Part shown: one piece after another, positions 800-56,440 of the stretch
Numbering within the stretch: position 1 is the stretch's first letter
How the letters are laid out: every line of letters starts with the position of its first letter
From: Vitis vinifera
Lineage: Eukaryota; Streptophyta; Magnoliopsida; Vitales; Vitaceae
Direction: 5' to 3'
NCBI RefSeq assembly: GCF_030704535.1
Contig: NC_081820.1
Location: 20,463,001-20,527,000 of the forward strand
DNA length: 64,000 nt
The notes under the pieces: generated by a model
What the model was told of the DNA's origin: nothing
The model's input: the letters and a program-made list of their open reading frames with translations, nothing else
Database searches by the model: none
Program-made: the position numbers and the translations under genes

Positions 800-3700
800 T
801 GTAGACCCCCTCAAAAAACGAATGGCTTTCCTTTTGTTTATGACCACCCAGGGAAGAGCTAAAAATCTCATTTTTGAAGTGAGGGGGACCCCATGCTAGA
901 AAGGGCAAGCAGCGTAGGACACGTGGGAGAGGATGTGACGATTGCCATGGCGGTGGTTGGAGCTTCAGAAGGTGATGGCAAGAACATGGAGTAGATAAGG
1001 GGACGTCTCTGACCAAGAGCGGGAGGGATAGTTGAGGTTACAGAGGGAGGGTTGTGGCCTAAGAAAAATGAGAGAAAAGTGGGTAGAGAAGAAACCCTGG
1101 GTTTGAGGAGAGCATTCTAGGTATGACCACTGGGCCACTCGTTTGCTTTGTTGGATTTACTCTTTATACACATGCTCTGTTTTTGGTTTTGTTCTTGGAT
1201 GTTTTGTTCTCTTGTAAATATCTGGTGCTTTGCTCCTTCCCGAACTTGACGTATCAAAATCACGTTGTTATTTCCTTTGGATTCCACCGGCTCTTAGCAC
1301 TTTGGCTGTCCATGAGGTAGAGCTAGGTTCGCACTCTGTTTTTCTTTTTTTTTTCCTTTTTGTACGTTTTTTTATTCTTCCCTGGTTATGTCTCTGTTTC
1401 GGGATGATGGTGGAGTGATGTCCTGAAGGGCCAAGTTGATGGGATTGGAGGAGTTTGGTTACGGAGGGGGATGACCATGATCATCAAGAAGGGGTCACCG
1501 TCACATGAGCTACCACCAAACGATGTGTTGAAAGGTTGCAGACGTGGTGAACGAGGATGGTGACGACGGAGACTAGTCAACGACGCCCTCGGTGTGCATA
1601 GAGGGAGTCGTGGTTGTTTACGAAGCATGGGATCCCGATGAGCGTCGCCTTCCTTAATCCTAGAACCTGGAGGAGAATCTATAGACCAGCGCCATTGCTG
1701 GATACTCGGTGCAGCTGCTGGAGGCGAGGTTCAGAGCGGCGACGGCAGGGCCTTTGACGGAGCTGTACAGAGGTGAGCATCCAGCGAAAAGAAGGCGGCT
1801 GCATGGAGGTTGGTTGCTGCTCTGAAGGCGTCCTCTCCGTCGCTCCTACTCCGGAGCTCCGACGATGTCTTCGGCTCCAGGGATACACTTCCCTAAATGT
1901 AGTCCCAGTCTTCAATCCGCTCTCCCCTTGATTGCCACTCTGCCCATCAAATCGCCGCTGTCGGAGACAGAGACGACGGAAAATCCTTTTTCCTCCACGA
2001 CGCCCTCCCTGAGTACCTAAATTTCGCTTCAAGCAGCAACCCCCACCCCTTTCCTCAATTTCATCACAGCCATCATCGATATGCAAGCCCTGTTCCTCAC
2101 CGCCAACTTGCTACCCATTAACCATCAACCTAGCTTTTTAAAAATGAGGTGACGACATCCCTTGATCTTCATGGTAGATATTTTGGGTTGTGGGTCTCGT
2201 TGGTAGGCTCCCAAGGCATTAAGTTGTGGGCCCAAGCTGCTTCATGTGGGCTTTAAGCCTCATCCTTTGAGTTTAGGCTAGATTAGTGTAGGCTCCAATG
2301 GGCCAAGTTTTTGGCCCTCTTAAGTCCTTGTTTCTTTAATGATGCAAATATAATTTTTATGAAGGTTCTATCCTTAAATAACCTTTCAAAATTCGTTTTT
2401 AAATTTAATTATACAAAATACCATTTTCGAAGCAATTTCCTAAAATTTGGTTTTAAATTTAGTTCATGAAACTTTGATTCCCGAAAATTCAATTTATCTA
2501 AACTTCGTTTTTTTTAAAAATTCAATTTTCCAAGTTTCCATTCTTGAAATAATTTTCTAAGGTTCTAATTTTAGGTCTAGTTCTCCAAGATCCAAATTTT
2601 TAAATTTAATTCTCCAACAAAATTCCACAATTCCGAATTTAATCTTTTTTCACAACTCCATTTCCTTTCAAATCAAATCTTCAAAAATTTTATTCTCAAA
2701 TAAATCTTCAAAATGCCATTTTCTTATACTTAATCCTCAATTTTTCACTTTCAAATAATTTTTCAATATTCTGACTTTCGAATTTAATTTCCAATTCCAA
2801 TTTTTCACACTTATTTATTTAATCATTACTATTTTCGTTATTATTAGCATTATTTCATTTATTTATTTCCTTTAAAAATTTCAATCATTAAAGTTCAATT
2901 CTTCAAAAATCTGACTTCCAAATTTAATTTTTCATCTCAAAAATTTCATTATTCACATTCATTCGTTTAAATATTATTTTTGTTATTATTATTATTATTC
3001 CATATTTATTTATTTATTTTAAAATTTTCAATCATTAAAGTTCAATTCTTCAAAAATTTGACTTCCAAATTTAATTTTCAATCTCAAAAATTCCACTATT
3101 CACTTTCATTCGTTTAAATATTATTTTCGTTATTATTATTATAATTCTATTTATTTATTTATTCATTTCTTTTAAAAATTTCAATCATTAAAATTCAATT
3201 CTTCAAAAATTTGACTTCCAAATTTAATTTTCAACCTAAAAAATTCCACTATTCATGTTGATTCATTTAAATATTATTTTCGTTATTATTATCATTATTT
3301 CATTTATTTATTTGTTTATTTCCTTTAAAAATTCCAATTATTAAAGTTCAATTTTTCAAAATTTCGTTTTCCAAATTTAGTTTTCAATCTAAAAAATTTC
3401 ACTATTTATGTTCATTCGTTGAAGTATTATTTTCGTTATTATTACTATTATTCCATTTATTTATTTATTTATTTCTTTTAAAAAATTCCGTCTTTAAACA
3501 ATTCTTCAAAAATCTGACTTCCAAATCTAATTTCTAATCTAAAAAATTCCATTATGCACATTCATTTGTTTAATAATTATTTTCGTTATTATTATTATTT
3601 CATTCATTTATTTATTCACTTATTCATATATTTAAAATCTCATCTCTAAATAATCCTTCAAATTTCCAATCTCTAAATTCAATTTCCAATTTCTAAAATT

Positions 3701-4804
3701 CTAACTTTCACAATTATTTATCAAATCGTTATTATTTTCGTTATTCTATTCATTTATTTATTCACTTGTTCATTTATTTAAAATTTCATCTCTAAATAAT
3801 TCTTTAAATTTCCAATCCCTAAGTTCAATTTCCAATTTCCAAAATTCTAACTTTCGTAATTATTTATCCAATCATTATTATTTCGTCATTATTATTATTT
3901 CATTCATTTATTTATTCACTTATTCATTTATTTAAAATACCGTCTTTAAATAATTCTTCAAAATTCTAATTTCCAAATTTAGTTCTCTGAAATTCAAATT
4001 TTCCTATCTCCGAACTTAATTTTCAGTTTCCAATATAATAATTCTCGCATTTATTCAATTACTCATTTATTATTATCATTATTATTATTATTATCATATT
4101 ATTCATTTATTTCTAAAAATTCCGACTTCGAATGATTTCCAAGATTTCCAATTTTTATAATTCAATTTTCATAGTTTTTACTTCTCAAATAATTTTCAAT
4201 TCTGATTTCTTTCAAAATTTAATTTTCAAAGTCCCAATTTTTGTAATTTAATTTTTTTAAAATCCCAAACTCTCAAATAATTTCCAAAATTTCAATTTCT
4301 TTCAAATTTAATTTCTAAAATTCTCATTCTTACATTTAATTCATAAAAATCCAATTTTCAAATAATCTCTAAAACTCCAATATGCAAATAATCTCTAAGA
4401 CTTCAATTTTCAAATGAATTTCAAAAATCTAGTTTTCCCTCGAACAGTTTTAATTTTTGTTTGGTGATGCATGTGATATGTTTTGTACTCTTATTGTACA
4501 CTAACCCCATTTTTATGATAGCGCATTGCTCGTTCGTGGCCTAGGTATGCATCCACTCCCATTTTGGTCATTCTCCATGCATGTTTTGATTCCCATGTGT
4601 ACATGATCGATTTGAGTATCCATTGATTTTCCTGTTGATTACCGTGTCAACTTCATTTTATTAGTAAAAACCCGACTTTAGGGACTTAGAAAAGTGTTAT
4701 GGTCTTTACCGTACCTTCCCGATAAGTAATCTGACCCCCGAGCCAAATAAAAATCGAGTTCGCCATCGAGTAGAAAACGCATGAGCTGAAATGCGGGGTC
4801 CAGA
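800..4804 (+). mobile_element. Solo LTR (about 4.0 kb) of a long-LTR retrotransposon family
   Basis: The segment opens with TGTAGACCCCC and closes with GCGGGGTCCAGA, the expected TG...CA-type inverted ends with one change at the 3' end. It is flanked by GTAAG (795-799) and ATAAG (4805-4809), a 5-bp target duplication with one mismatch. No gag or pol is present. The tail at about 4700-4804, including ACCGTACCTTCCCGATAAGT, recurs at 24860-25077 and, inverted, at 31760-32010, so this is a repeated family. The first 1.3 kb is less AT-rich than the rest and holds open frames (for example 1679-2086, minus strand) without recognisable domains. LTRs of this length are known in Ogre-like Ty3/gypsy elements, but that assignment is inference. 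Confidence 0.7.
2800..4140. repeat. Degenerate tandem array, about 150-bp period
   Basis: A unit built from TTTTCGTTATTATT, an ATTTATTTATTT run and a CAATTCTTCAAAAAT segment returns near 2833, 2971, 3121, 3273, 3427, 3577, 3732, 3881 and 4061, giving about nine diverged copies. It lies wholly inside the solo LTR and is flanked by less regular AATTTTC-type simple sequence. Confidence 0.75.
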
Positions 4805-9460: not shown

Positions 9461-9678
9461 TGATAGAATTTTAAGAAAGAAGATTCTGGAGAGAAGATAG
9501 TGGAAAAGGTTATTTTGGAAGACTGTCCAGAAAGTGTCTCCTCTTTTGTAGAGAAGTAGACTCTCTGTTTTCTCTATATATTTCTACAACTTAAGTATTG
9601 TTACAATCTGTTAAGCATGAGCCATCAAGACTAATCCAAAGCTAATTCTTAACTGATCCTAAGTAATCTTCTCTAACA
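9461..9678 (-). repeat. 3' LTR of the 9.5-14.3 kb copia
   Basis: 218 bp, TGATAGAATT...CTCTAACA on the plus strand, which is TGTTAGAG...TCTATCA in element sense. About 96% identical by eye to 14112-14328. Confidence 0.95.
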
Positions 9679-10241
9679 TCCCCCCTCAAACTCAAGGTAG
9701 AAAGATTTTCTATCCTGAGTTTGTGTCTGAATTCAATAAATTGAGTCGAGGAAATTGTCTTTTTGAATACATCTGCAAGTTGATCAACTGAGGGGACATG
9801 GCGAACCTCTACCTCCTTCCGAATGACCTTTTCACGGACAAAATAGAGATCAAGCTCTATGTGCCTTGTTCCTGCATGAAGAACAGGATTAGCAGACAAC
9901 AAAACCGTGTTAAGGTTATCACACCAAACCAGAGGAGGCTTAGCTAAGGGAAGTTGCAACTCACTCAACAATGACCTTAACCATGTGATTTCAGCTACCA
10001 AACCTGCAAGACTTCGATATTCAGTTTCAGTACTAGACCTTGAAACAGTATGTTGTTTATTGGATTGCCAAGATATCAAATTTGCTCCCAAAAAAGCACA
10101 ATGGCCTGAGGTCGAGCGTCTATCATCCAAATCAGATGCCCAATCAGCATCACAAAATCCAACTAAATCAAGGCTGGATGATTTCTTCAAATGCAAACCA
10201 TGCTGCAAAGTGCCCTGTAAATATCTCAAGATTCGTTTCAC
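9642..10241 (-). pseudogene. Copia RNase H domain fragment
   Basis: A 199-codon open stretch with the copia RNase H signature: FCDADWASD with the first acidic residue, [12 protein letters not shown], the [13 protein letters not shown] segment with the catalytic Glu, VWCDN with a further Asp, and [12 protein letters not shown]. The frame continues into the 3' LTR, where it stops. This domain looks intact in its key residues, but the upstream pol is broken, so no full polyprotein can be made. Confidence 0.9.
9679..9697 (-). other. Polypurine tract of the copia
   Basis: Element-sense CCTTGAGTTTGAGGGGGGA directly abuts the 3' LTR, where second-strand synthesis is primed in LTR retrotransposons. 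Confidence 0.85.
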
Positions 10242-11313
10242 AGCCTTCCAATGCTCCTATGTAGGATTCTACATAAATTGACATACTTTGTTCACACTGA
10301 AAAAGAGCTCCGGCCTCGTGATGGTCACATATTGAAGAGCTCCTACTGTACTCCGATAACCATGTAAATCCTCCACAGGATCACCATCTCCAACTCTTAA
10401 TTTTAGACCAGTGGGCAGGGAAGTTCTTACAAGTTTGCAATGCACCATTTTTGTCTTTTGGAGCAAGTCTCGAATATATTTAGTCTGGGATAAATGTACT
10501 CCATTATTGGTATGAGAAACTTGTATTCCTAGGAAATAATGCACTTCCCCAAGGTCTTTCAAGGAAAATTATGAGCTCAATTGAGCTATTAGGGAAGTAA
10601 TTGCAACTGTGTCACTACTAGTGACCAAAATGTCATCAACATAGACCAAGTCATATGTAATATGACTAGGAGTGAACCTTAAGAATAGTGACTGGTCAGA
10701 CTTGGCGGATACAAACCCAAAACTCAACAATGCTCGATGGAATTTCTCAAACTAGGCTCGTGGGGCTTGTTTCAAGCCATACAAGGCCTTATGAAGTTTA
10801 CAAACCAAATTAGGATTTTGCTCATCAATAAACCCTTGTGGTTGTTGCATGAACACTTCTTCTTGCAAATCTCCATTGAGGAACACATTATTTACATCCA
10901 GTTTCTTGATTGCCCAATTCATTGAGAGAGCAATGGTGAAGACAACTCTTATTGTAGAAGGCTTAACGACTAGACTTTAGTGAAATCAAAGCTGGCTTGT
11001 TGGTGAAAGCCTTTGGTGACCAATCGTGCTTTATACTTTTGAACAGTGCCAATCGGATTTTCTTTAGTTTTGTAAACCCATTTGCAACCTATAGCCTATC
11101 TACCAGCGGGTAAAGGAACTAGTGACCAGGTGTTGTTCCTTTGTAATGCATCATACTCAACCACCATAGCCTTTTTCCACTCATCTTGTTGAAGGGCAGT
11201 TGCAACACTTGAAGGTTCTCTTACTGCAACAATAAAAAATTTGGGTTTAAAAATTCCACTTTGTTCTAGTAATCATTGGATGAGTATTATCAACATCCTT
11301 GGCAATCTCCTAG
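10242..11313 (-). pseudogene. Copia reverse transcriptase, disrupted
   Basis: Frames on the minus strand contain [12 protein letters not shown] (near 10760), the YVDDILV catalytic motif (near 10640) and MKDLGEVHYFLGIQVS (10562 downward). A TAG at 10752-10754 stands where the family has Trp (PRAWFEKF-type motif), and further frame changes lie between 10563 and 11310. Non-functional as it stands. Confidence 0.88.
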
Positions 11314-13040
11314 TCACACTTGCAACAGAAAAGACAACATGTTGTACAGGAGTAGCAACTGGATTAGAAACAACTTGCTGAGGAGAAACAACAAAACTAG
11401 GAACTTGTGTGCAGGTGCTGGAGTAGTATCAACACTATTAGGTGCATGTGGGTGAGTGGAAACAACATTATCCATTTCACTTATTGGCCTAGCTGAAGAA
11501 ATGGGAGAAGTAGGAGTTGGCAGCATTGTTGGAGACAATATTGGAGGAGAGGCTGAAGGAGACAAATGAGAAGTAAAAGGGGAAACAGTAGAAGGTAAAC
11601 AAGATGAAGCTTGAATAGTTTTAGAATAAGGGAATGAGGTTTCATTAAAAATGACATCACGGCTAATATAGACTCGACCATTAGAAGACATACATTTGTA
11701 ACCCTTGTGTTTTAGACTATAGCCAAGAAAAGTGCATTCTTCACTCCTGTATTGAAGTTTATGGGTGTTATAAGGACGTAAGTTGGGAAAACAGGAGCAA
11801 CCAAAAACTTTGAGGAAAGAATAGTCAGGTATGGACTTGAACAAGACTTCAATGGGACATTTGTGATGAAGTACTACAGTGGGAAGCCTATTTGATAGGT
11901 AAACAACAATCCTAAATGATTCATCCCAAAATTTAAGAGGAAGAGAAGTTGTATGAAGAAGGGTTAAACCATGTTCAACTATGGTCCTATGCTTCTGTTC
12001 AACAACACCATTTTGTTGTTGAGTGCGTGGACAAGAAACACGATGTACAATGCCATTTTCAGCAAGATAAGATTGAAAAGCACGAAATTCACCTCCCCAA
12101 TTTGTTTGCAAGGACTTGATTTTTGAGTCAAATTGCAATTCCACCTGAGTTTTGAAGTTAACAAAGGTTTTGATAGCTTCAGATTTATTTCTGAGTAAAA
12201 ATATCCAAGAAAATCGTGAAAAGACATCCACAAAGTGAATATAATACCTATATCCACTATTAGATAATACCGGGGCTGGACCCTATAAATCTGAATGAAT
12301 TAACTTAAGGGGTTTGGTATAAGCTGTATGAGACAAAGTAAAAGGAAACCTATGTATTTTACCCAAGCAACAAGAAGAACAGAAGTTGGAGTCCATTTTA
12401 TTTATATGGGCAACATTACATTTGGACAGAACATTTTTAATTGTTGCAACCGAATGATGACCTAATCTTCTATGCCACAAATCAAAGGTAGATGACAAAG
12501 AAGCTGTACAAACTTTAGAAGAAAAGGAACTAGCAACAACAAAAGAAGACTTCAATAAGCTTTGAGTTGGTCTAAGAGCAAGATGTGAGGAGTCAAAAGC
12601 ATACAATCCATCTCTAACCTTCCCAACCATTAGAACAACTTGGGTTACCTGATCCTTAACAAAACAAGAATCAGAATGAAATTCAAAAAATACTTTATTA
12701 TCCTTTGCAAATTTGGAAACTGACAAGAGATTTTTGGTAATTGAAGGTACATAAAGTAAGTGATTAAGTAAAAGAGGTTTAGATGAAAAATGAGATAAGA
12801 ATTCAAATTGACCAATATGCTTAATGGACAAACCTATTCCATTCCCAACATGAACCTGATTTTGCCTAGCAAACTCAGCACTTTTCATCATATTTGCAGG
12901 ATTAGGTGTCACATGATTTGAAGCTCCAGAGTTCGGATACCAATTGTCATCACCAAAGACTTCAGAAGTTGGGATAACACCATTTACTTGGGGTGAAAAA
13001 CTGTAATAAGCCCGAGGAGAAGGTTCCTGCCTGACAGATT
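11314..13040 (-). pseudogene. Copia protease and integrase, disrupted
   Basis: The region starts with the protease active-site neighbourhood, which reads WYPNSGASNH near 12930: the D of the conserved D-S-G triad is N (AAC at 12931-12933). The pre-integrase zinc-binding region follows (WHRRLGHH ... CSSCCLGK). A TAG at 12283-12285 replaces the Trp of the conserved HSDLWGP motif, after which the same frame continues as the integrase core (VDVFSRFSWIFLL, then the D,D-35-E region with NGVVEQKHRT). A Ser/Pro/Thr-rich C-terminal tail runs to 11314. Confidence 0.9.
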
Positions 13041-14085
13041 CTATGGTACCTGGAAAGTATGGTCAAACCTGTAATAGCATTGTGCTACTACATGACCTAT
13101 TTTACCACACAGTTGGCATACTGGTTTCTCATTCTGATTATCAGAGTTCCAAGGAGGTCTTGCTTGAAAACCACATCTATTTCCTCTACCACGAAAACCA
13201 CCTCTATTACTTCTTCCATTGTCATTCCAATTGAATCCACGACCACCATTGAAGCCACCTCTACGACCAAAGTCTCCACCTCGTCCAAAACCACCATTGT
13301 AACCTGAATGACTACCTTGAGAGTTAGCAGCATAATAATTCTGCTTAAAACGATTCCCTTTTTCTACAAAGTTAGGGCTTGCAACATGAGCAGAAGGAGA
13401 GGAGTCAAGAGAACTGTTGTTCTTCTCAACTCTGGATTCATGAGCCATCAAGAGAACTTCAATTTCTTCAACTGAAAAATCATCATTCCTCAAAGTGATT
13501 GAGGTAACGAAAGACTCATAATCACTAGGTAAACCATCAAGAATTGATTCAACATGATCTTTGGTTGACAAAGAAACACCAATAGATGCAAGTGAATCAA
13601 CACAAACCCTGATCTTTGCAAGGTATTCATCAATTGTTGAACCTCCCTTCTTGGTATGCTGAAATTGAGTCTTGAACTGTTTCACCTTGGCTCGAGTCTG
13701 AGACGCAAAATATTGCTCTAATCGTCCCCAAAAAAGAAATGATGTATCACAGCCAACTAACCGAGGAAGAATTGACTCAAAAACAGATGAGAGAAGCCAA
13801 AGAGAGCAATAGTTGATCTTGTTGTTCCCACTCGAGGAATTCCTTAGTTGCTTTTCCAGATCTCGCATCTTCTCCGATGAGAAATTGAACTGGTACTTCA
13901 TCATCACTGAACACAAATTTCTGTAGCCCATAGCCTCGAATTGCAGAGACGATTTGTTGTTTCTAGATCAAGAAATTCTTGTTGTCAAGCTTCACGGACA
14001 GTGAGTGATTGAAGTTAATTGGAACAAAACGACTGGAAGACAAAGGATTAAGGTTCACTATTGCAGGACTGATATTGACCTCCAT
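13041..14085 (-). pseudogene. Copia gag, disrupted
   Basis: Likely start ATG at 14085-14083. The N-terminal part shows the copia gag pattern (SVKLDNKNFLI), interrupted by TAG at 13963-13965 where Trp is expected, and then a frame change before about 13810. The C-terminal part is open from there to 13041: a gag-polypeptide (UBN2-like) region, a Gly/Arg/Asn-rich stretch (GGFGRGGDFGRRGGF) and one CCHC zinc knuckle, CQLCGKIGHVVAQC. Confidence 0.9.
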
Positions 14086-14346: not shown

Positions 14347-15215
14347 TACCTCTTCCACAATGACTCTGTAGATTGCTAGTTGGGATGGATTGGGATTTCA
14401 GGGATGGGGCTCTTTATTCCAACACTCCCTTATGTTCCATCACTCATATTCATTGTCTAATCCAATGTTTACAAGGAGAAGTTGATGGAACTCTGGGCTT
14501 GGATTAGATGAAAATACATGGAAGGGAAAATGAGAAGTGTTATTGAGTGGCTCTCCTCACAAAACTTTGTTTTGGCACCTAGAATTTTGGGCCTTTTTTT
14601 TTTTTTGGTCTGATGGCACTTTAATTATTACATTTCTTTCTAAAAGGCTTTTAGAAAGAATCCAACAATTAGTGTTTGGGTGTAAAATTCCACATAATAA
14701 AAAAGTAATTTTTGGAAGAAGCATATATCTTAGTATTAGTCTAATAATTATTTCAAGGGATTTTAAAAAAATTTTAAAGTAATTTTTAAAAAATATCTAA
14801 TTTTTGTAAAGAAAGCACTTTTAAGCATTAAAAAAATTCTTTTGTAGTCTATTTTTGGATTACACTTACACCATGTTTTGCAAAGGTATGAGATAACAAG
14901 ATGGTTTTTCAGAGCAAAATCCAAAGTTAGGAGATGCAAGTGATTATAACATCCACGTAATGTTTAATTGAACTAAGACATTGAAATTTTAAAAATATAG
15001 AAGAATTAAAAATAGTTGTCAAAAGCACAATTTTTTATAATAGTGGTTTTAATTTTTTTTAATATAAATTTGAATGTTGTCGATCTGTTTTTTGTGATTT
15101 TAAATATTTTTATCTTTAACATGTCTCTTCTTGAATTGAGTTTTACTTCTTCCTTTACCCATAGGCTATGGTGGGATATTTAGTAGGAAGCTTTGTGTCA
15201 AGTTGTATTTCAAAA
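14347..15215. other. AT-rich intergenic DNA
   Basis: No gene or clear mobile element recognised. Confidence 0.5.
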
Positions 15216-15754
15216 GTAGGAATGACAATAGAGCGGATTTTTTTGGGTACCCGCCCCGCCCCTAATGGGATGGGGTTCAATTTTAATAAATGGGTTTGGG
15301 ACGAGTTTGAAATTTGTTTTTAAAACCCAGGGCGGGTTCGGGTATTGCCCCGCCCCGTCCTGCCCTGATTATATATAAAATTAATTTTAAAATTAAATTA
15401 TATTTAAATTTTAAAATTAATTTAATTTAATTTTTATTTTACTATTTTTAATATATAGATAATAATAAAATATTTTTAATAAAATAAGTTATAAAAAATA
15501 TAATAATTTAATTATTTATAAATATATTTATTTTAATGTAATTAAATATAATCTTTTTTTTTAAATAAAATTAAAAAAAAAAAAAAAAAGTTAAATGGGA
15601 CTGGGCGGGTTTGGGAATTTATCATACCTGTCCCGTCCCGCCCCACCCCCGTTTAATTTTTTAAATGGAACGGGAATGGGAATTGTTTTGAATAAATGGG
15701 GCGGGGTTGGGATGGGGGCGACCCGTCCCGAACTCGCTCCGTTGTCATTCCTAC
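15216..15754. mobile_element. MITE with GC-rich ends and AT-rich core
   Basis: Terminal inverted repeats GTAGGAATGACAA... (left) and ...TTGTCATTCCTAC (right) extend with a few mismatches through GAGCGGA / CTCGCTCCG. Both ends are flanked by TCAAAA (15210-15215 and 15755-15760), a 6-bp target duplication. About 150 bp at each end is rich in GGGCGGG/CCCGCCC, while the centre (15370-15590) is almost pure A/T. It encodes nothing. The family or superfamily is not recognised. Confidence 0.8.
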
Positions 15755-15784
15755 TCAAAAGTGGGAATAAAGCAGATTCCACAT

Positions 15785-15945
15785 CTAGGGGTGAAATGGG
15801 GCGGGTGCTTTCAGATATTCGTTTTCGAATATTCGTCCTATCCTTAACGAGACGGATTTAAAATTTAAATAAATAAGTTTGGAGCAAGCTTGAGATTTTC
15901 TTTCAAACCCAAAACGTGTTTGGGTCGGCGGGTTTGACTTATCAA
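15785..15945. repeat. Diverged partial copy of the same GC-ended MITE family
   Basis: GAAATGGGGCGGGTG..., then AACGAGACGGATTTAAAATTT and CAAACCCAAAACGTGTTTGGGT echo the left arm of the 15216 element, 31 bp after its end. No terminal repeat pair is visible. Confidence 0.5.
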
Positions 15946-17337
15946 TAAGAGAATATTTTTAATTCTCTTTTGACTTCAATTATTTGTTTTTTGTTTTTTG
16001 TTTTTTTTGTTTTTAATTTTGAAGACTTGATTTTGTACTCTTCCAAATTTTGTTATTTTTTAAGTTGTGCCATGTAGATAGACCATGTGTAGGACCATCA
16101 TTTGTCAAGCCTAATTTATTGAATTATGAAATCATAATTTTAAAGATCAATTTAGTGGTAAATTAATCCACTAAATTTTTTAATTTCTATTCATTTCGAA
16201 GAAAATGTATTTTCATACACTAATGTAAAAATAATTGCAAAAATAAAAATCTTCTAAAAATAATTAGAGTTTCATGCATTCATCAGTCACATATAGTATT
16301 TAAGATAATGAAAGATATTCATTATATCATTAAAATTTAGTAATTAAATGATCAAAGGGAATACATTTGATAAAAGAAAGTGTATGAAATGCTAATTAAT
16401 TTGAGATAACCACTTAAAATTTGAATTTTATAAACTTTGATTCCTATTTTGATTCGTATAAATATATGAAAATGCATTTTTCTGATAATTGTTTGAATAA
16501 TAAAAAATTCAGTATACAATCGAGGTAATATTAGAAAAGGAAATTTTAGTTTGATTGGAAGTTGTTTTTAAAAAGAGTCTTTTATTTTTCTGATCCAAAA
16601 ACATATTTAATAATTATTTTATCAAATACAATTTTTCAAATAACTTATTCAGAAAAACAAAAATGTTTTCTACGAATAGAAATATAAAATTTATATTAAA
16701 AATGAATTTATTATAATTTCAATCTTTTACCATGCAACAAAATCAAAATAAACTAACAATCACCAAATATCTACTAGAAAAATAATTATAATTAGTTCTA
16801 AAAAATGCATAAATATGTATAGTCTATTTGATAGTCTTTTGACTCTTTTTCAACTAATTTTTTTTAAATAATCAATAAATATCAATTATGGAGCGTTTAT
16901 TTTAATCACAAACACATAAATATGAAGATATACCAAACATTAAGTTGGAGAATTTCTAACATTTTCTTAGTAACCAACTTAATTAGAAATCTAATTATTA
17001 CTGCATTACCAATTTCCTTATAATTATATAATTAATCATTATATAATTTTATTACGATAATACATTCCAATATTTTGAAATATATTAGATTACTATATTT
17101 TCAAACTAAATAAAAAATATAATAATTAATCTTATATATGTTTTTAATATCTAAAAATGAGTAGATTTACACTTAAGGCATTAATTAAAAATGACCTAAT
17201 AAAAAAAATATTTAAACACTTATTCAAATAAGTCAAATCTAGTTAGGTTTATTCAATTTCTAAGTAAAGCACAAACAGCTCCCTAAAGTTGGTGTAGAGG
17301 TGAATTTTAATTACATTAAGAACATGTTTAATAGATA
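15946..17337. other. AT-rich intergenic DNA
   Basis: No coding or RNA gene signal seen. Confidence 0.5.
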
Positions 17338-18420
17338 TTAATTTGAAAGATAAACATTTGGAAAATGCTCGATCTGCAAACCGAGACAAAATTTTGTTTT
17401 TTCAAGATCTTTCATCTCAAATTCATTTTTTAAGTAATTTGGTGTTCTTGTGAGCTCTTCAGGAGTTCCAACAAGATTTAAGTCATCAACATACACTGCA
17501 ATAATTGCAAATCCGGTTTCTGATTTCTTAATGAAGATGCATGGGCATATAAGATTATTCATATACCCTTCTTTTAGCAAGTATTCGTGAAGGCGATTGT
17601 ACCACATGCATCCAGAGTGCTTTAATCCATACAAGGATCGTTGTAACTTGATTGAGTACATGCTATAAGGTTTTGTACAATTTGCTTCAGGCAATTTAAA
17701 TCCTTCAGGGATTTTCATGTATATATCGTTATCCATAGATTCATATAAATGTGTTGTAATAACATTCATAAAACGCATATCTAGTCCTTCTGGGATTATC
17801 AAACTAATTAAGAAACAAAATGTGATTGCGTCCATGACGGGAGAGAATGTTTCCTCGTAGTCAATACCAGGTTTCTATGAGAAACCTTATGCTACTAATC
17901 GTCCTTTATATCTTATGATCTCATTATTATCATTGTGTTTTTTGTACAAATACCCATTTGTACCCAACAGGTTTTACATCTTTAGGTGTTTGGACTACAG
18001 GTCCAAAAACTTCTCATTTTGTTAATGAGTTTAACTTTGCATGTATAGCTTCTTTCCATTTTGGTCAATCATTTCTATGTCGGCATTCTTCCACATTTCG
18101 TGGTTCAGGATCTTCATCATTTCTTATTATATCGAAGGCCACTTGGAAAGTGAAAATATTGTTAATAATAATATTATTTTGATCTCATTTTTCTCCCGTG
18201 TATACATAACTCATTGAAATCTCACAATTTTCAAGTACTTGTACCTCTTCAAGGGCTTCTTGTATTATTTGAGCCTCTTCCAGGGCTATAGATTTATCAA
18301 TTTTAAACTGATCAATCATTTTGATGGTCTCTTCTAGAGTGCCAAGTTTTTCTTGGGTTCTCCTCTTCCGGGAAGTTACATCATTTGAGGCGACAAGTCT
18401 ACCACGCTTCAGGCGTATCT
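17338..18420 (-). pseudogene. Copia reverse transcriptase fragment
   Basis: The 165-codon open part (17338-17835) contains LQRSLYGLKHSGCMWYNRL, the YVDDLNLVG catalytic motif and EFEMKDLEKTKFCLGLQIEH. Just upstream, frames with interrupting stops read PGIDYEETFSPV and KWKEAIHAKLNSL-type sequence, which are conserved N-terminal RT motifs. The fragment ends abruptly at 17338 without connection or RNase H domains. Confidence 0.88.
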
Positions 18421-19913
18421 TAGATTAATTTGTTAACTGTCCTACAGGGACATCAATCCGTGCTAGAGTATTTGCAGTTGGGATATATGACTTTGTCACT
18501 TTCTTTGTATGAATGCATCTTGTAGTTGATTTGCAGGATTTTGCAAATGAATGATCCTTTGAACTTCTAGTTCACATTGATTTGTATGAGGATCAAGATG
18601 AGTCAAAGTCAATCAGTTCCAAATAATTTCACGCCGTTCTTCTAGAACTAACTCTTCTCCCCCTAACGATGGGAAAATTGTCTCATTAAAATGATAATCT
18701 ACACAACATGTCATTCTACCTTTTAAGTGTATAGGTAGACTAGTCACTAATTAAAAACTTCTAGTTTTGTAATGTACATCCATATGACCTTTTACCCCGG
18801 GGGACCAAGTTGGTCTTAAAAAATTCTTCTGGATCTATCATCATATAAAGTGTCATTCACATGGAATCAAATACTACTAGTGACATAGTATAAGCTCTTT
18901 TGGAGCATTTAATCAGGTTTCTATCACCTGATATAGTATTAACATTGTTTGTCATCAATGTTGTGTAATGAAAGAGACAAAAGTTTCATCAAAGTAACAA
19001 GTCATAAAACATTATTATAAAAACCTTGTCTTTATAGAGTTGAAGCAATATTATCATAAAGAAAGAGTTAAAATCAATGGAAAAATATTAGTCATTGATG
19101 ATGACATAATAAGTTGTGTAAGAGTAATGAGAGCATATATAACACAATAAAACAAATATGATAAGATAATTTGAAGTTATATATTTCTTAAAAAATCTCA
19201 CACATTTGATTTTGTAAGTGTTGAACATTTATACATGAAATAATGAGGAAGTATTTCAAAAATCAAACTAATTGTAGTGATAGATCAATAATTTGATTCA
19301 AAATATTATTATGATCTAAATCAATGTGCAAAAATTAATTCATAAATCAAAATTTCAAGAGAACATATCATGATTTAAAGCATCTTGTTGTCTCAAAACT
19401 TTAATTGAAATACTACAAATCCATCTGAACATATATGTAAAGATATAACATAATATATTGAGAACAATAGTTGAACCTATTGTAATTTCAAAATTATTTT
19501 GGATAATGAAATTATTGCATTAATAAAAATACCATATGTGGCAACATGCAATAATATATGTAAATTTTTCTACTAATGACTGTATAACTTCTAATAATAG
19601 AAATTCATAAAAAACTATCAAACACTTACCTATTTATATAACTTGATATACAAAAATATTATCTATATGCTTGTTATCATAACTTCAAACTATAATATAT
19701 TTCATTATAACTTTTGGTTATATAAATTTCATAAAGTTGTACAAAATTGTTAGTTAACAATTTTGTTCTCTATAGCTTCTAGCTATAAGAAAGTACATAT
19801 TAACAACTTTGGCATAACCTTTGATTTTCACAAAGAATATTAATTTTCTTATTTTCATAACTTCGGGTTATGAATAATAATATTTATATAACTTTTGGTT
19901 ATATAACAAAATT

Positions 19914-20147
19914 TTAAAAAAAAATTATGTATCTTCTAGATACATAGTTGTTCATTTTAACTTCCTTTTCTTTTATTGATGTTTGGTAAAGGTCAACCAA
20001 ATGTTTGGGCGTACGATAGGTACGCGACCAATGTCCCTTCATACCACATCTATAACAATTATTGTCATGGTTCTTAGGAGGTTTATCTTGTAAACACTTC
20101 TCATTTTCTTGTTTTACCTTAGTATTATTCCACTTCTGGTGGTGCAA
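19914..20147 (-). pseudogene. Copia gag zinc-knuckle fragment
   Basis: Contains CYRCGMKGHWSRTYRTPKHL. The CCHC knuckle is damaged: its last Cys is Tyr. The following LVDLYQTSIKEKE is typical of one large plant copia gag family. The frame is closed on both sides. Confidence 0.85.
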
Positions 20148-21048
20148 TAAGGCTTTCCTTTTCTAAGAATTTGGTAAATTATTACTATAAGAACCATGGT
20201 ATAGGGGATTTCTTCCATGACCACGTCCTCATCATCGTTCACGAGTTTGAGACAATATTGCATTCACTTCGAGAATGATTCAGATCTAGTTGGACGAGAC
20301 TAGTGATTTCTCATCAAAAGCTCATTTTTTGTTAAACCTTCATGGAGATGATGACGAAGGAAAATCAGTGTTTTTGTACGATCCTATAGGGATGCTTGAT
20401 TTCCTTCTTTGATCATAACTCCAAGATTCATTGACAATTTTGTTTTGAATAACTTCTGGTTATACAAGAGAATTAGAAATTGTATGCATAGCTTCTAGCT
20501 ATGAAACTATTGTTAATAAAAATTGTTTTTCATAATTCTTATTATGAAAAATAAGTGAGTACAAAATAAAAATTAAAAGTCAATATTTTTCATAACTTTG
20601 AATTATGATCATTTTGTCGAAACAAGAAAATATGCAAATTTGTACATAGCTTCAGACTATGAACTATTTATGTATAACTTCTAGTTACACAATATAATTA
20701 AAAGATATTAAAGAAATTAAAAGTTAATATCTTTCATAGCTTCAAGCCATGATTATTTTGTCAGAACAAGAAAATATTTAAATTTGTACATAGCTTCAGG
20801 CTATGAACTATTCTTTGTGCATAACTTCGGGCTATGAACTTTCATTATGTAGATTTGTACATAACTTCAGGTTATGAACATTTATTTATTTATTTATTTT
20901 ATAACTTCTGGCTATAACATTGTTTGGTATAACATCTAGTTATACCGTATAATTAAAAATAAATAATTAAGGATCATATACATAACTTCTGGTCATGTAT
21001 TTGTAATTTTATAATTTTCCCTATAACTTTTGATTATAGGAATTGCAC

Positions 21049-21570
21049 ATATTTTTCATAACTTATGGTTATGAATTTACCCTATAATTTATAATTTATG
21101 ATTATAGAGATTGTATATATTTTTCATAACTATTGGTTATGAATTTACCCTATAATTTATAATTTATGATTATAGGGATTATACATATTTTTCATAATTT
21201 CTGGTAATGAATTTACCCTATAATTTATAATTTATGATTATGGGGATTGTACATATTTTTCATAACTTCTGGTTATGAATTTACCCTATAATTTATAATT
21301 TATGATTATAGAGATTGTATATATTTTTCATAACTATTGGTTATGAATTTACCCTATAATTTATAATTTATGATTATAGGAATTATACATATTTTTCATA
21401 ATTTCTGGTAATGAATTTACCCTATAATTTATAATTTATGATTATGGGGATTGTACATATTTTTCATAACTTCTGGTTATGAATTTACCCTATAATTTAT
21501 AATTTATTATTATAGGGATTGTACATATTTTTCATAACTTCTAGTTATAGGGATTATACATATTTATGTA
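21049..21570. repeat. 68-bp tandem repeat with 204-bp higher-order period
   Basis: Seven full units start at 21049, 21117, 21185, 21253, 21321, 21389 and 21457, and a truncated one at 21525. Three unit types alternate in order A-B-C-A-B-C-A: A has CATAACTTMTGGTTATG, B has CATAACTATTGGTTATG, C has CATAATTTCTGGTAATG. Each unit also holds CCCTATAAT ... ATTATAGGG-type inverted arms, giving a second hairpin. The array probably grew by duplication of a three-unit block. Confidence 0.9.
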
Positions 21571-21764
21571 TTCAAATAAAATATATGAAAATAGATATCA
21601 AAATGTAATAAAATAGAAAATCATTATATAAGTTTATCACATACCTTTTTGTGAGAAAGAAGAGAAAAAATCTTTCTATTTCTCTTAAGGGAAGAACATC
21701 TTTCTATTTCTTTAAAGAAAAGAACGCCTTTCTTATTTCTTTGAATAGAGAAGTGCTAATAACG

Positions 21765-21947
21765 TGTTGTAAAATAGAGAAGAAAATAAGAAAGAGAAAT
21801 TAGAATATAGAAAGAGAATAGAATGCACGGGAAAACTCTATTGAAATTCATTAGGAGTCTCTCCTTTTTATAGGGAATTACATAAAATATTTATGGATGA
21901 TCATCCACAAGTTACCATAGTGGTACAAAATCTTATATTTTATAACA
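21765..21947 (-). repeat. 5' LTR of the second copia
   Basis: On the plus strand it runs from TGTTGTAAAATAG to TTATATTTTATAACA, so TG...CA in either sense. Element-sense CGTTATTAGCACTTC (21764-21750) follows it as a likely primer-binding site. No partner LTR in the window. Confidence 0.7.
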
Positions 21948-22419
21948 ATGACTTCAATTTTTTTTTTTAAATCTATTTTTTACAATAAAAAATGAGTTTG
22001 GTTATTGAAATGAGTATACTCATGAAAAATGTGAGTCCACTTGTTGTCTATTAATTTAATATTAATTTTTCTATAAAGTTAATATCCTTGAAGAAATAAA
22101 ATCTAAATGGGTTTTAGAAAAAAAAAAAGTTAAATAAAACTATAAATAATAAATGTACAAATTAAGAGTCCATTTGGTGGTGTTTTTTAAAATTTGTTTT
22201 CAAAATAAAGAACAAAAAACTGTTTTTTAATTTTTTTTTTTTTTTTAAATAAGAGTGATTGACAAGATGTTTTAAAAAATGTTTTTTAAAACAAAAAACA
22301 AAAAACTTGTTTCGATGAAAGAATTTGTATTGTTTTTAAAAGCAATTTCTTACTTTTAGTTTATAAAAAATTTATAAATTTAATTTATAATAATATGAAA
22401 ATATTATTATAAATTTAGA

Positions 22420-23255
22420 AGACTAAAAAATTTAGTTTTCCAAATAAAATCAAATCTTCCAAATTATTGTTAAAAGAGAATAAAAAAATTAAATAAATAT
22501 TTTGACAATTTTTTTTTAAAAAAAGAAACAAATATTCCTTTTGAAATCAAAAGAGAATAAAATAATAATAATAAACAAATATTCTCTTGTTGACAAAATC
22601 AAGCAACTACATCTCATAGAATTCCAAATTTTGATTTTCTAATTTCACCTATAAATATGAGTGACTTATTTCAATGGAGAGACTTTTGGAATGACAAAAA
22701 AGGCTTGTGTAGAAGAAATCGTAGAAGAACTACACATATGTTTTGCCTTTTAACAAAATCATTCAAAAAAAGTCATTCATTCATGAGCAAGCCATTTGTG
22801 GGCTTCGATTGATCTTCCAAATTATGATCAAAGTGAAAGAATCAAAGAAAGATATTTTTTTATAAAAAATAGTACCACAAAAATTATACCCCACAAATTT
22901 AATTTTAATAAAATATTTTGTTTCGTATTATTTTTCCTATTGTTTTGCTTACATTGTAGGATCATACGTGAAATATGTGCGTACAAAGATATAAATTGGT
23001 TATTAAATTATTAAGTCTGGTTTGGGTATATTATTGGTTTGCATATAGTTTTTATTTTTTATTTTTTTTTAAATAGAAAATGACAATTAACTACTTATGT
23101 AAAATGTAAGAAACTTTATATTAAAAAATAGTGACTTTTAAGAAATGTTTAAAAATTTTAAGTTATTAAAAAATATTTATTATCCCAAATTTAAAAAGTT
23201 TTAAAAATAATTTTAAATCTATACTCTTTTATATAAAAGTTACTACCATTAAATA
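22420..23255. repeat. Left copy of a direct duplication
   Basis: Two blocks of this stretch return in the same order and orientation at 25540-26170: one around AAATCAAATCTTCCAAATTATTG (22448 on; 25568 on) and one around GATCTTCCAAATTATRATCAAA (22809 on; 25748 on). The left copy has about 190 bp (22600-22795) that the right copy lacks. No coding content. Confidence 0.8.
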
Positions 23256-23330: not shown

Positions 23331-25077
23331 GGGTCCTAATGATATTTTCTTGAGCTCACATTCTTTGTTGGCACAATGATTTGACACTAGGTTTTAAAAT
23401 ATGCATTTTTATATGAGAGTTGACACCTGCTCAAACTTGGATGCTTGGCATGATTATTTGCAATATGTAAACGGTGGTCCCAAGCAAATTTTGAATGAAT
23501 ATGTTTAATTTTCAAAAATTTAATTTTTTAAATTTCCAATTTTCAAAACTTTGATCTTTAAATAATTTTCCAAAATTCCAATTTCCAAATTTAATTTTCA
23601 AAATTTCCATTCTCAAGTAATTATTCAAAATTTCAATTTTTAAATTTAATTTTTAAAATTCCAAACTCTCAAATAATTTTCAAAATTCCAATTTCTTTCA
23701 AATTTTATTTCCAAAACTCCAATTCTTAAATTTAATTTTTAAAGTTCGAAACTCTCAAATAATTTTCAAATTTCCAAATTTCTTTCAAATTTAATTTCCC
23801 AAAATTCTAATTCTTAAATTTAATTTTTGAAACTCCAATTCTCAATTAATTTTCAAAACTCCAATTTCTTTTAAAATTAATATTCAAAACTTCAATTCTT
23901 AAAACTCCAAACTTTCAAATAATTTTCAAAATTCCATTTTCTTTCAAATTTAATTTCCAAAATTATAATTCTTAAATTTAATTTTCGAAACTCCAAACTC
24001 TCAAATAATTTTCAAAACGCCAATTTCTTTCAAAATTTAATTTCCAAAATTCAAATTCTTAAATTTAATTTTCAAAACTCCAATTTCTTTCAAAATTTAA
24101 TTTTCAAAACTCCAATTTCTTTCAAAATTTAATTTTCAAAACTCCAATTTTAAAATAATTTTCAAATTTCCAATTTTTTTAAAATTTAATTTTCAAAATT
24201 CTAATTCTTTAATTTAATTTTCAAACCTCCAATTTTCAAATAATTTTCGAGATTTCAATTTTCAAATAAATTCCAAAACTCTAGTTTTCTTTCAAATAAT
24301 TTTAATTTCACTCTAGTTTTCAAATATTTTTTTTATCCTACCACTTTTCATCATTCATTAGGATTCTAAGTAGCTAAAAATCCTGTTTTTTTAATAAATT
24401 TGCTACCTTTCCTTTCAAATAAGCATTTTTCTCAAATTTTCTTTGATTTTAAAATAATTTTTTTCGTTTTCTTTTATTTTAAATAAGCAAGAATGAATTT
24501 TTCATAATTCTAAAATAATAGAATTTGTGAGATTAATTCATGTAAGATAAATTAGGTTTTGGTGGGGGTCTTACATATGATCTCTTTTGATTGTCAACTG
24601 TTATACTTAATGTATGTTGTTTTATCTTTGTTTTGCTCTTTAATATGCATGTAATAATTTTATACTTGAACTAACATTGTTTACATGATAGCACAATATT
24701 ACTTGCTGCCAAGGTACGCTCTCACTCCCACTTTGCTTATTCTCATACATGATTCATTTTATTATTTGATTATTTCATTGATATCTATTGATTTCTTAGT
24801 TAATTACCATGTTTGTTTCAATTTACTTAGTAGAGACGGACTTAGAGGGGTGTTTCGTTCTTTTTACCGTACCTTCCCAATAAGTAACCTGACCCTCGGA
24901 CCCGTGTCGATTTTTCATAGACCTATTTTTCCTTCAAAAGTCACTTAAATTTTTCTTTCTTATTTTGTTTTTTCCTTTTAAAAATAAAACAAAAATAAGT
25001 GGCGATTTCAAATCTTTTTCTAAAAATCATATTGCGTCATTGAGTGGGAACGCATCCAATAAAATACGGGGTCCACA
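23331..25077 (+). mobile_element. Second copy (fragment) of the long-LTR family
   Basis: The 3' end AAATACGGGGTCCACA (to 25077) and the conserved tail with TACCGTACCTTCCCAATAAG (about 24868) match the solo LTR at 800-4804. The middle (23500-24300) is simple AATTTTCAAAACTCCAATT-type sequence with a roughly 35-bp rhythm, as in the first copy. The 5' end is not clear; position 23331 is a guess from TGGGTCC next to a CTTAT that also follows the 3' end. Confidence 0.6.
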
Positions 25078-39400: not shown

Positions 39401-42400
39401 TTTGTATATTCCCACATGGAACATAGTTCGTGGAACTTCATTATTGTATAGATTTACTTGAACTTTGAAGGTTCCTACTTTCTCTTTGTGTAGTTTTTGG
39501 AGGATCTCTCATTCTTCTATTGTACTTATTTTTACTTACCTTAATATGTTGTACTGTTGTTTCTCATCAAAAAAAGAATGAAGTTTTAATTTTTTTTAGT
39601 GATAAAGTTTTATATTTCGCTTTCCTTTCTTTTTTTGTTGGCAAACAAGCTGTCTTTAGTTTTGTATCTTATGGCCTTTCTTTGTTTTTTCTTTTCTTTT
39701 GTAGTGCACTGGTGTGGTTAATCTTGGTGGAGAAGTTGGCTGTATGATTAGTGAGGGCCCATGGTTGTTTGTGGGTATACCAAATGTTGTTAAGGTGGGT
39801 TTGAATGCGAAATCTCCTTCCTTTTGCTCTTATTATATATACTATAGTATTATTACTACTATTTTTTTCTTTTTTTCTTTTTATAGGAAATAAGAAATAA
39901 TATAACTTTAAAAATAAACAGTACTATTGTTTTTTCTTTTACTATCACTGCTATGTTTCATTGCACCTTTTTCTTATAGGATTAGCAACTCGAATATAGC
40001 AGTACCAAGCAGATGATATCTTGCCTCACTGGACAATTTATGATGATATTGCAGGCATGGCACACTCAAAATAACACTGAATTGAGTCTCAGTGGACCCA
40101 CTGGACAAGTTTATGCATTGGTTGTTGGTAATGATCTGCTCTTTGCTGGTGTACAGGTAATTCTTTTGACTACAAGCTGATCATTCTTATTGTCATATAA
40201 ATTCCATGTGTAGGTTCCATAATAGGTTAGCCAGCACCATATTGAGTCTCTTGGCTTTGGCTCTTAGGTGGTTAAGAAGAACTATATGTTTGCATGGTTC
40301 ATGTGATTTTAATTTTTAACCATGTCATCAAGGGATAGAATTGTGATAATTGATGTTTTGGAAGTACCCACTGTTTAGGCAAGTGCATGCATTGACAGTT
40401 TCATGAGTACTTCGTGCACTCTTGATCTGGGTTGAGTCAGCTTGTGTTGTTTGTCTTTCGAACAGTGTGTTCAAGCTCAGTGCACGCTCTTAGAAAATTT
40501 TGAAGGCTTTCCAAGTCTTGAAGGCCTCAAGGATGCTTTGTTATCTGAATCCCCGAATTGAGTACTTTGTTTGTGTGTTTAGCTTGGATATGATTTTTAG
40601 CTTGGGGACAACACTTTGTCGATGTTAGCTTTGTGAATTGGTTAGGCTCTAGGTAGGGCACATTTGCCGTTTTTTGTGTTTTCGCACCTCATCTTGGGTA
40701 TTGCGGCTTCTTTGTATACATCATGTATACCTTTTTTCATTTATAATGCATCTTATTTACCTAAAAAAAAAAAGATTTTTTGCTTTTCTTTTCTTGTCTT
40801 TTCTTTTCTTTTCTCTGGCTCTACTTTATTCGTAAACTCATGCATGACTTATTGGTAAGCTTGAGTTGAGGCCTTAGGGCTAGGATCAAAACCTTTGGCA
40901 GTATTTGTATTGTATTTCTGTTATGGTTGTTCAGCCTTCTTAATTGGGTAGGCTAAGAGGGCCAGGTTGATTGGTCTAGTCTGGTCGACCAAGCTGTGCA
41001 GCTTGCTTTTCGGGTCAAGTGGGTAGGATCAACCTGTTTTGGAGCCCTATTGTGCTTTAAAGTGTTATCATTAAGACTTATCAATTCACAAAGACCTTTA
41101 GACTTGAGGTCTATCTTGAGGTTAATGCACTGAAATTTACTTCGCTTTTTTGTGGTGTGGAAGAGGCTTTTGTGCCAGGAATTTGATAGACTTGATCAGG
41201 TTACTAACACTTTGAGATAGCAAAATTCCTATTAGAGTCCTCAAATATATTGTCTGAGAAATTGTTAAGGAATTCCTTTCTTGCACCGAGCATGGATTGA
41301 TTGGCATCAGGAAGGAGATTGAAAGGCTAAAGTTGAAAGAAGCTTAGAGGAGCATATCATGAACTAAAAAGCTAATGAGAGATTTCAAAATCTTGAATGC
41401 TCATTTAGGTTTTTAGAAAGCCTTGGTAGCCAAGTGAGTGTTGCAACAGTTTAGGTGAATTGGTTAAGATTCTTGTGTCTTCACTGTTATCTTTGTGCCT
41501 TTTTTTATATTTATATCTCAAAATAGTGAGTGATATCTTGGTTGTGTTGGTGTTTTCTCATTGTTGTAAAACCGATGAATACTTGCAAGGTATTTGATAA
41601 AATAGTTTAAGGAGAAGATCTTTGATAAATTGATGAAATACATAATTTGCTAAAGAATTTGGAAAATATATTCTCCTCTAGAAAATTCTTTTTATTTTTG
41701 ATAGGCAAATTAGAAATATATATAAAATAGGTGTGTCACTGAATCCCCTTTTGGTCATTCTTGAGTATAACTGGTATAGTTTCACTTACTGTGCTAATGT
41801 GATATAGTTTGGGTTGCAGTTATATTATGTATGGTCTAAAATTATGATGATCATGAACACATTCAAGTTTTGGCTGGCTCTTAGGTTGAAACACAGGGAA
41901 AAAAATTGTTGCCTGTTTACATCCACTGGATTCACTCTATCCCTCACATTCCCCTTGCTCTCATGAAAACATGGTCACACACAAAAGCAAGAATAACAAG
42001 GAAGAATAAGCGTGTGTTTCTTCTCTTAGAATTTTCTTCTGCTGCAGGATGGAGCAATACTGGCATGGAAATTTAATGCAGTTTCCAACTGCTTTGAACC
42101 AGCTGCCTCACTCAAAGGTCACACTCAATCAGTGATCACGCTAGTTGTTGGAGCTAACAGGCTCTACTCTGGTTCCATGGACCGTTCTATAAGAGTAAGT
42201 TGGTTTTTAGCATGATATGTATTATCCAATGAGAATCTTTTAGCATGATATGTATTATCCAATGAGAATCTGGTATTCTTAAAGGAGCATCTTTAGAAAC
42301 ATATTTGAATCTGTTTTAGCCACTTAGTCCTTTCCTGATTTGCCTTACGTAATATTTCTCTTTTTTCAGGTCTGGAACCTTGAAAATTTGCAGTGTCTGC

Positions 42401-55445: not shown

Positions 55446-56440
55446 AAGTTTGTTGGTGTCATAATTTTCAAAGTTGCGGTAATGGTACAAATTCACTACA
55501 AATGGAATATCAAAAATTACTTAAGGCATATTAGCAAATTATCATTGTAGTTCAATTTTAATATTAATTCAACTTTAATAATAGTTTTATATTTAATTTA
55601 GTTTAAATTTATGGTTTATGCTTTATCATTACTCTTACAATTAAAATTGTATATATATAGTTCAAAATTTAAATTTTATTTAATTTTACTTTGTTAGAAA
55701 TAATTATGTAATCAACTATTTCAATTGAAATATTAATTTAACATTTAATTTGGTTGAATATAATTTTGTACAATTTTTCATTTTCAAATGTATATATAAA
55801 TCATTACTTCAAATATTTAATTTAGTTTAAATTATTTATTTGAAGGTAATTGTTTAATTAGTTGAAATCAAATTTCAATTTTATATCTAATTTAATTTAG
55901 TTATATATGTCATTTGTACTTACATTGGTGCAATTTATTTATTTTAACTTTTGAGGTATTTGTTTAATTTCTTTGATTTAAAAATTAAAATTTTATTTTA
56001 TTTAATTACATATAGTCTGTCATTTATACAAACAAATTTATGATTTCTTTATTTTAGTGTACGTGTTCAATTAGTCTAATTTAAAGGTCACATCAAGTTG
56101 GTCTCCATATGGACTATATCAAATTGCTCCTTACTTGGACTCAGTATTGCAAACTCATTAAAGGTCACATATATACTAATAAAATATTTGGAAAATTTTG
56201 AATCTAGACACGCCATTTCACTTCTTCAACAAATCCTAAAAATATTTACTTATTTACCCTTGGTTTCAAATTACCATGCAGGTTTTCTTTCTTTTTTTTG
56301 TTTTTTTTTTCTTGCTCATAACTTTCCCTTGCTTAAACTTCCCAAAGACAACATTCTTATATTTCAAGATATATACCTAAACATTTCTAGATTCTTATAT
56401 TTCAAGATATATACCTAAACATTTCTAGAGTAATCATCAA
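55446..56440. other. AT-rich intergenic DNA
   Basis: No gene recognised. It includes a perfect 38-bp tandem duplication at 56353-56390/56391-56428 (ATTCTTATATTTCAAGATAT...). Confidence 0.55.

Follow-up and report, generated by a model that had tools for sequence, protein, structure and literature searches.

A sense-strand hairpin array in the leader of a decayed Bianca-type copia element of grapevine and its possible role as a packaging signal

The retroviral packaging region psi comprises hairpins located after the primer site, which in HIV-1 lie partly downstream of the major splice donor, and it consists of a few unlike hairpins and is not known to form an array of like ones. The packaging region of MMTV reportedly contains a purine loop, and the packaging signals of STNV-1 are said to be many hairpins with a loop motif. 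According to the accessible part of one report, the STNV-1 signals were inferred in vitro and had no discernible significance for packaging in vivo (PMC6475782). Among plant elements, excerpts describe BARE2 as a copia parasite that lacks gag and retains the signals for packaging and dimerization; it produces no spliced RNA, and a gag-bearing relative packages it (PMC3735527). TARE1 of tomato has short LTRs and a different primer site, and the available portion of its description mentions no hairpin or stem in the text (PMC3701649). The literature on leader hairpins, packaging, and Bianca, as far as its texts were accessible, contained no report of an array like the present one among the matches listed. 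Little is known about how the RNAs of plant LTR retrotransposons are selected for packaging or about the competition of gag-less parasites for Gag.

The locus described here lies in a window of 64,000 nt, i.e., the whole stretch of grapevine DNA that was analyzed. It holds a hairpin array in leader position that is present in many copies and in fixed orientation, and the stem states shared by many copies pair in the sense rather than in the antisense RNA. In our judgment, the evidence is about evenly balanced on whether this array, comprising about ten to twenty stem-loops of the sense RNA in a Bianca leader, acts as a multi-site packaging signal composed of repeated, putative Gag-binding sites. 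A leader that contains many copies of one simple hairpin and is abundant in one genome would represent a countable signal.

The host element and its gag-less family

Judged from its sequence, the window element is a long-dead minus-strand copy of the Ty1/copia type, and the proposal of the initial annotation that the minus strand is the copia sense strand was confirmed by the LTR, the gag and pol matches, the domain search, and the ORFs. Along the minus strand, the LTR is followed by the primer site, the GTATGT block, the hairpin array, the gag remnant, the second hairpin block, and the pol remnant (Table 1); likeness to relatives ends at position 17355. No second LTR of the element was found in the 64,000-nt window and no RNase H piece in positions 15000-22500. 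An RVT_2 match is located at 17338-17835 of the window, and in the relative L021 the SH3_retrovirus domain, which we take to be part of the integrase, precedes RVT_2, so that the integrase stands before the reverse transcriptase (RT) in copia order.

Table 1. Features of the window element (positions in the window)
Feature	Positions	Strand	Basis or remarks
5' LTR, 183 bp, TGTT...AACA	21765..21947	-	LTR matching to relatives
Primer binding site (PBS) CGTTATTAGCAC	21753..21764	-	directly after LTR; 12-nt perfect complement, anticodon arm of tRNA-Ile(AAU)
GTATGT, putative splice-donor-like motif in conserved block TCACAAAAAGGTATGTGATAAACTT	21639..21644	-	leader alignment
Leader hairpin array, 18 units	20448..21549	-	between PBS and gag remnant; pairing and pairing-free scans
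68-bp tandem part of array, 7.8 copies	21022..21548	-	tandem repeat search
gag remnant, zinc-knuckle end kept, start and middle gone	19965..20432	-	match to relatives
Second hairpin block, between gag and pol	19678..19945	-	units at 19678, 19706, 19771, 19856, 19887, 19927
pol remnant: protease piece, integrase end, part of RT	17355..18966	-	match to relatives and domains

With respect to lineage, Bianca elements are characterized, in the accessible text of their description, by priming with half a tRNA-Ile and by separate ORFs for gag and pol, 172 bp apart on average (PMC6317226). The primer site of the window element is complementary to half a tRNA-Ile, which under this lineage rule is a mark of the Bianca type, to which we provisionally assign the element. 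A 20-nt tRNA pattern occurs at 12 places in the genome, and both of the two places retrieved were identified as tRNA-Ile by ARAGORN, one of them (L059) being the source of the 12-nt match. In L021, an ORF containing the gag end terminates at 4533 and the following one starts at 4680, but this is a single relative, in which gag itself is divided between two ORFs, and the window copy is too decayed to be read in this respect.

Elsewhere in the window, minus-strand ORFs at 9642-13931 resemble gag, integrase, and RNase H by eye and represent a second copia-like element. Long AT-rich tandem arrays with periods of 146-153 bp and about 55-86 bp are located at 2838-3979 and 23504-24296, and perfect two-copy tandem duplications of 38 bp (56353-56429) and 33 bp (42205-42271) are apparently recent.

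The genome search covered 495.6 Mb in 21 contigs, from which 50 stretches (L009-L058) were retrieved, 20 of them via one exact 17-mer (the first of its 114 places) and the other 30 chosen by likeness to the gag remnant of the window; the sample is thus nonrandom. The 461-bp gag-remnant query yielded 379 first-look candidates, 40 of which (window included) were scored, all with a match of at least 90%. The leader alignment comprises 37 copies, i.e., 36 of the 50 stretches and the window; stretches with partial leader matches only (L009, L014, L015, L018, L021, L026, L028, L039, L040, L043, and L054) or with no leader match (L016, L019, and L042) were left out.

The sister copies have large deletions in common. 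In 37 of the 50 stretches and in the window, similarity to the front gag piece of L021 sets in at nucleotide 91 of that piece, and hence these copies lack the gag start; the middle of gag is gone in the window and in all 18 of those 37 stretches that reach far enough, the other 19 ending too early. The integrase-front piece of L021 is absent from all 13 other loci with any pol match. All three gag pieces were found only in L018 and L021, the former with the common pol deletion, and parts of another gag are present in L016 and L042. Since the deletions are common to the sisters, the founder copy was probably already defective and moved with the proteins of others. The LTR pairs are 89-96% identical in seven of eight copies and 81% identical in the eighth (L022). 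Two loci about 26 kb apart (L014:2597-4283 and L015:4526-6207) each carry two facing LTR-plus-leader segments within 1.7 kb, and read-through of this inverted repeat would give a long double-stranded RNA.

Composition and orientation of the hairpin array

The initial annotation had counted about 20 copies of an inverted motif, and this count is borne out by 21 perfect hairpins with a stem of 6 bp and a loop of 5 nt that start in 19640-21570, compared with 2.83 per 1930 bp in the remainder of the window; after dinucleotide shuffling of the same region, 500 replicates contained 1.66 on average and never more than 8. A scan without pairing requirement detected 22 CATARC-type units in 19706-21549; a 23rd unit (19678-19694) and a 7-bp relative (19927-19945) were read by eye from the sequence. 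In sense, the unit typically has the form YATARY-YNRAA-RYTATR, and the loop type common to the array is C-YNRAA-G. An Rfam search of window positions 19000-22100 gave no match up to an E value of 1.

The irregular spacing over 1.9 kb that had been described needs to be qualified: the array fills the 5' leader, a second block lies between gag and pol, and the region 21022-21548 is a 68-bp tandem array, the units of which are hence not independent of each other. Each 68-bp unit contains a CATAAC-type hairpin and a second, 9-bp hairpin, the commonest form of which in sense is CCCTATAAT/ATTATAGGG. The second block, as counterparts of window positions 19600-19960, was recovered from 8 of the 30 loci L009-L038 (L009, L012, L013, L025, L027, L031, L032, and L034); in L012 and L013, from which the gag remnant is absent, the two hairpin blocks adjoin. 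The number of units per leader is 12-18 in eight leaders of the gag-less family (window included) versus 9 and 11 in two gag-bearing leaders. Many sisters have an extra homologous hairpin of the CATAGC-CTGAA-GCTATA type (alignment columns 282-298), and its lack in the window copy, beside look-alike units, fits a loss by unequal exchange.

In ten leaders, 148 units point in the sense direction and a single one is reversed, compared with 6 and 8 in equal lengths downstream of gag in the same elements; the scan behind these counts and the unit counts above requires a YNRA loop, and the orientation is thus that of this loop type only. All 20 sampled sites of the exact 17-mer are located in leaders of such elements, as assigned by BLAST for 18 sites, by a 47-nt LTR match for L016, and by eye for L019 from its likeness to L016. 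The alternative origin put forward initially, the spread of a hairpin as a small transposing unit, is not supported by these results: such a unit would be expected in both orientations and outside one type of host element, whereas the loop orientation is fixed and the 20 sampled sites are confined to such leaders. That a small palindromic DNA unit multiplied and inserted by itself, like the hairpin elements of bacteria or mitochondria, would account for the many copies and for single units that are present or absent between sisters, but in view of the fixed orientation (148:1) and the restriction of the sampled sites to leaders of this element kind we regard it as highly improbable; moreover, the gains and losses affect adjacent look-alike units, as unequal exchange would predict.

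Strand preference and covariation of the stems

Seven imperfect stems had been named as carrying mismatches of one kind, and all of them indeed show A/C or C/A on the plus strand, as do the stems at 20673 and 21533; the stem at 20448 has an A/A mismatch. The statement that the C-type 68-bp unit is the only opposite case holds insofar as two 68-bp copies (21226 and 21430) show T/G on the plus strand, but T/G is also present in two-mismatch stems of another unit (21193 and 21397). A count of wobble pairs on both strands over many copies had been set beforehand as the test that could refute a role of the sense RNA, and over the 37 copies it revealed an excess in sense, both in all cells (223 to 65) and in shared states (9 to 0). 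This count is based on twelve non-tandem leader hairpins with counterparts in 36 sisters and 25-37 complete copies per hairpin; the 72 pairs comprise 2177 Watson-Crick cells, 223 G.U cells (sense wobble), 65 A.C cells, and 73 others.

As dead copies have acquired most of their differences since insertion, shared and private states were counted separately. Among states common to at least 6 copies, G.U occurs at 9 pairs and A.C at 0, whereas states found in at most 5 copies comprise 25 G.U and 27 A.C (Fisher P = 0.0033 between the classes); three of the G.U pairs occur in 32-33 copies each. Parsimony on a tree built without the stem columns gave 18 Watson-Crick-to-G.U and 6 Watson-Crick-to-A.C changes on internal branches versus 50 and 53 on terminal branches (Fisher P = 0.023), and over 60 bootstrap trees the medians were 15 and 6 on internal and 52 and 51.5 on terminal branches. 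Private changes thus show no strand preference. The internal spectrum of the non-stem columns comprises C>T 43 times at 63 C and G>A 25 times at 30 G, so that per base G>A is at least as frequent as C>T outside the stems and a C>T bias does not explain the wobble asymmetry. The general principle would be that, in a transposon family, states common to many copies reflect selection acting on the mobile RNA and private ones reflect decay after insertion.

The 419 complete hairpins (those with a gap and pair 1 of hairpin 20448 being left out) were fully paired in 324 cases as sense RNA, in 203 as antisense RNA, and in 167 by Watson-Crick pairs alone, although 3 of the 12 hairpins (20928, 20645, and 20448) are intact slightly more often as antisense. 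The mean energy favors antisense in 5 of the 12 hairpins, and the mean total energy favors sense (-2.71 versus -2.24 kcal/mol over 410 cases). For the exact motif with pair 5 left free, the genome-wide counts, which include duplicated loci and decay after insertion, were 449 A-U, 277 G-C, 134 G.U, and 89 A.C, and nine divergent leaders, taken as single copies, showed no clear difference (32 G.U, 24 A.C). The folding energy of the leader was dropped as evidence for a strand, as its z scores (-9.8 and -9.2) are as extreme for the antisense.

A tree-preserving shuffle of 33 copies revealed 94.7% standard pairs (null maximum, 94.6%) and 54 A.C cells (null minimum, 62); G.U cells were also depleted (206 versus 245), less than the A.C cells (54 versus 91). 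Two Watson-Crick types were present at 4 pairs compared with a mean of 1.5, a value reached by 16 of 400 shuffles and hence a weak positive sign, and at 5 pairs with all 37 copies, reached by 65 of 400. The share of standard pairs in the 37-copy tree null (94.6% versus a null maximum of 91.7%) was set aside in favor of the 33-copy version, as this null is probably distorted by the outgroup root.

Covariation in the strict sense was less pronounced. The earlier observation that stem bases change in pairs is supported by the 19 distinct hairpins of the window, for which 0 of 20,000 shuffles of the 3' arms paired as well, but in homologous hairpins of the 37 copies the double changes did not exceed a column shuffle (10 cells versus 8.7, a count that 173 of 500 shuffles attained; hairpin 20448 entered without its pair 1), and compensatory double changes above background were accordingly not detected by this test. 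In the same shuffle, the covariation score was reached by 112 of 500 and the number of paired cells by 58 of 500; the score itself (0.084) is above all six slid controls (at most 0.043). The pairing of unlike stems within the window may reflect old unit types.

Paired changes could also arise without selection if the polymerase, in DNA replication or reverse transcription, switched template within a near-palindrome and used one arm as the template for the other (quasi-palindrome correction). Short inverted repeats that are copied by reverse transcriptase are suitable substrates, and the process would account for the perfect pairing of differing stems without any function and for the low number of double changes. 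It predicts, however, no strand preference, whereas the shared states favor sense wobble 9:0 with three G.U pairs in 32-33 copies each, and it might occasionally invert loops, whereas their orientation is 148:1; we therefore consider it unlikely.

Still less weight is given to a neutral by-product, i.e., a decayed AT-rich tandem repeat with units that are palindromic by chance, which we regard as very doubtful. About half of the leader array is indeed the 68-bp tandem repeat, the column-shuffle covariation is nonsignificant, and the stems are not clearly slower than the spacers (internal/terminal ratio, 0.22 versus 0.26, with overlapping ranges and more changes per column). Nevertheless, the non-tandem units stay paired at homologous places across copies that are about 10-25% diverged, units also occur in other families of the genome, and the shared states exhibit the wobble asymmetry. 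The proposal that the stems were kept as structure of the sense RNA is thus partly supported, namely by this asymmetry, whereas the test for covariation of double changes gave a weak outcome.

Possible roles and comparison with known systems

The position and the wobble asymmetry indicate a folded RNA segment that follows the PBS near the 5' end and was kept by elements without a Gag of their own. The persistence of the hairpins in elements moved by the proteins of others argues for a cis-acting role of the RNA, and a structure that persists in elements with neither an intact Gag nor an intact integrase would be expected to benefit the RNA as such, namely, in selection by Gag, dimerization, or reverse transcription; the location between primer site and gag would fit packaging best. 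Under the packaging reading, the hairpins would be repeated low-affinity sites for Gag, and Gag supplied by intact relatives would select or dimerize the genomic RNA via these sites; in the gag-deleted family of the window copy, the array would have been retained and diversified at a time when these elements lacked an intact Gag themselves. From the functions suggested in the initial annotation (packaging, dimerization, or translation), putative packaging or dimerization hence appears likelier, and control of the element's own Gag translation is disfavored because the hairpin-keeping family lacks an intact gag. Dimerization by kissing loops is unlikely, as the common loops CAGAA, CTGAA, CCGAA, and TAGAA are not self-complementary.

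The array might also be connected to splicing. The GTATGT stretch is the best-conserved part of the leader, with mean major-base frequencies of 0.95 and 0.96 in two 25-nt windows compared with 0.87-0.94 in the others (36 sequences), but it is AT rich and may simply mutate less. An AG after a T run is located three bases before the gag ATG in L021 (TTTTTAG) and L018 (TTTTCAG); L021 has both candidate intron ends, L018 only the acceptor side, with an altered donor. We tentatively, and with low confidence, propose that the Bianca array is situated inside a candidate leader intron, the splicing of which would leave the Gag messenger without the array, so that the array would be a multivalent tag of the unspliced genomic RNA. 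If so, the abundant gag-less derivatives, having lost the acceptor, would always carry the tag, and the larger number of hairpins in their leaders (12-18 versus 9 and 11) would make them parasites with an enlarged packaging tag. The same donor-like block and acceptor-like sites in L018 and L021, together with the leader position, are compatible with hairpins that act not in packaging but in translation or splicing, e.g., in ribosome landing, shunting, or control of a leader intron. This we hold to be improbable, since the array-keeping sisters have neither the gag start nor the acceptor-like site, yet the shared wobble states arose there.

A comparison with STNV-1 calls for some caution. Its short degenerate signals, proposed as coat-protein sites (PMC6475782, in the part available), resemble the present array, but they belong to a satellite virus, and the in vivo result obtained with them is a warning for the packaging reading of the hairpins. 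With Bianca, as far as its description is accessible, the elements share the half tRNA-Ile primer site and the copia order, and possibly the spaced ORFs for gag and pol, of which L021 is the one example, whereas no leader hairpins or leader intron are mentioned in that text (PMC6317226); the window family moreover differs from Bianca as a deletion derivative without intact gag or integrase. The TIPIRT structure of Ty1 likewise acts in cis, close to the 5' end of a copia-type RNA, and is involved in dimerization and packaging, but according to the available excerpts it is a pseudoknot with two kissing hairpins (PMC5454406), whereas here many like loops are present that are not mutually complementary. 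In the accessible text on BARE2 and BARE1 of barley, which belong to another lineage, no repeated hairpin array is described, and the intron of BARE1 lies at the start of the protease domain (PMC3735527). As a gag-less element that retains packaging and dimerization signals, BARE2 is nevertheless the nearest precedent for the grapevine family in the part of the report available (PMC3735527).
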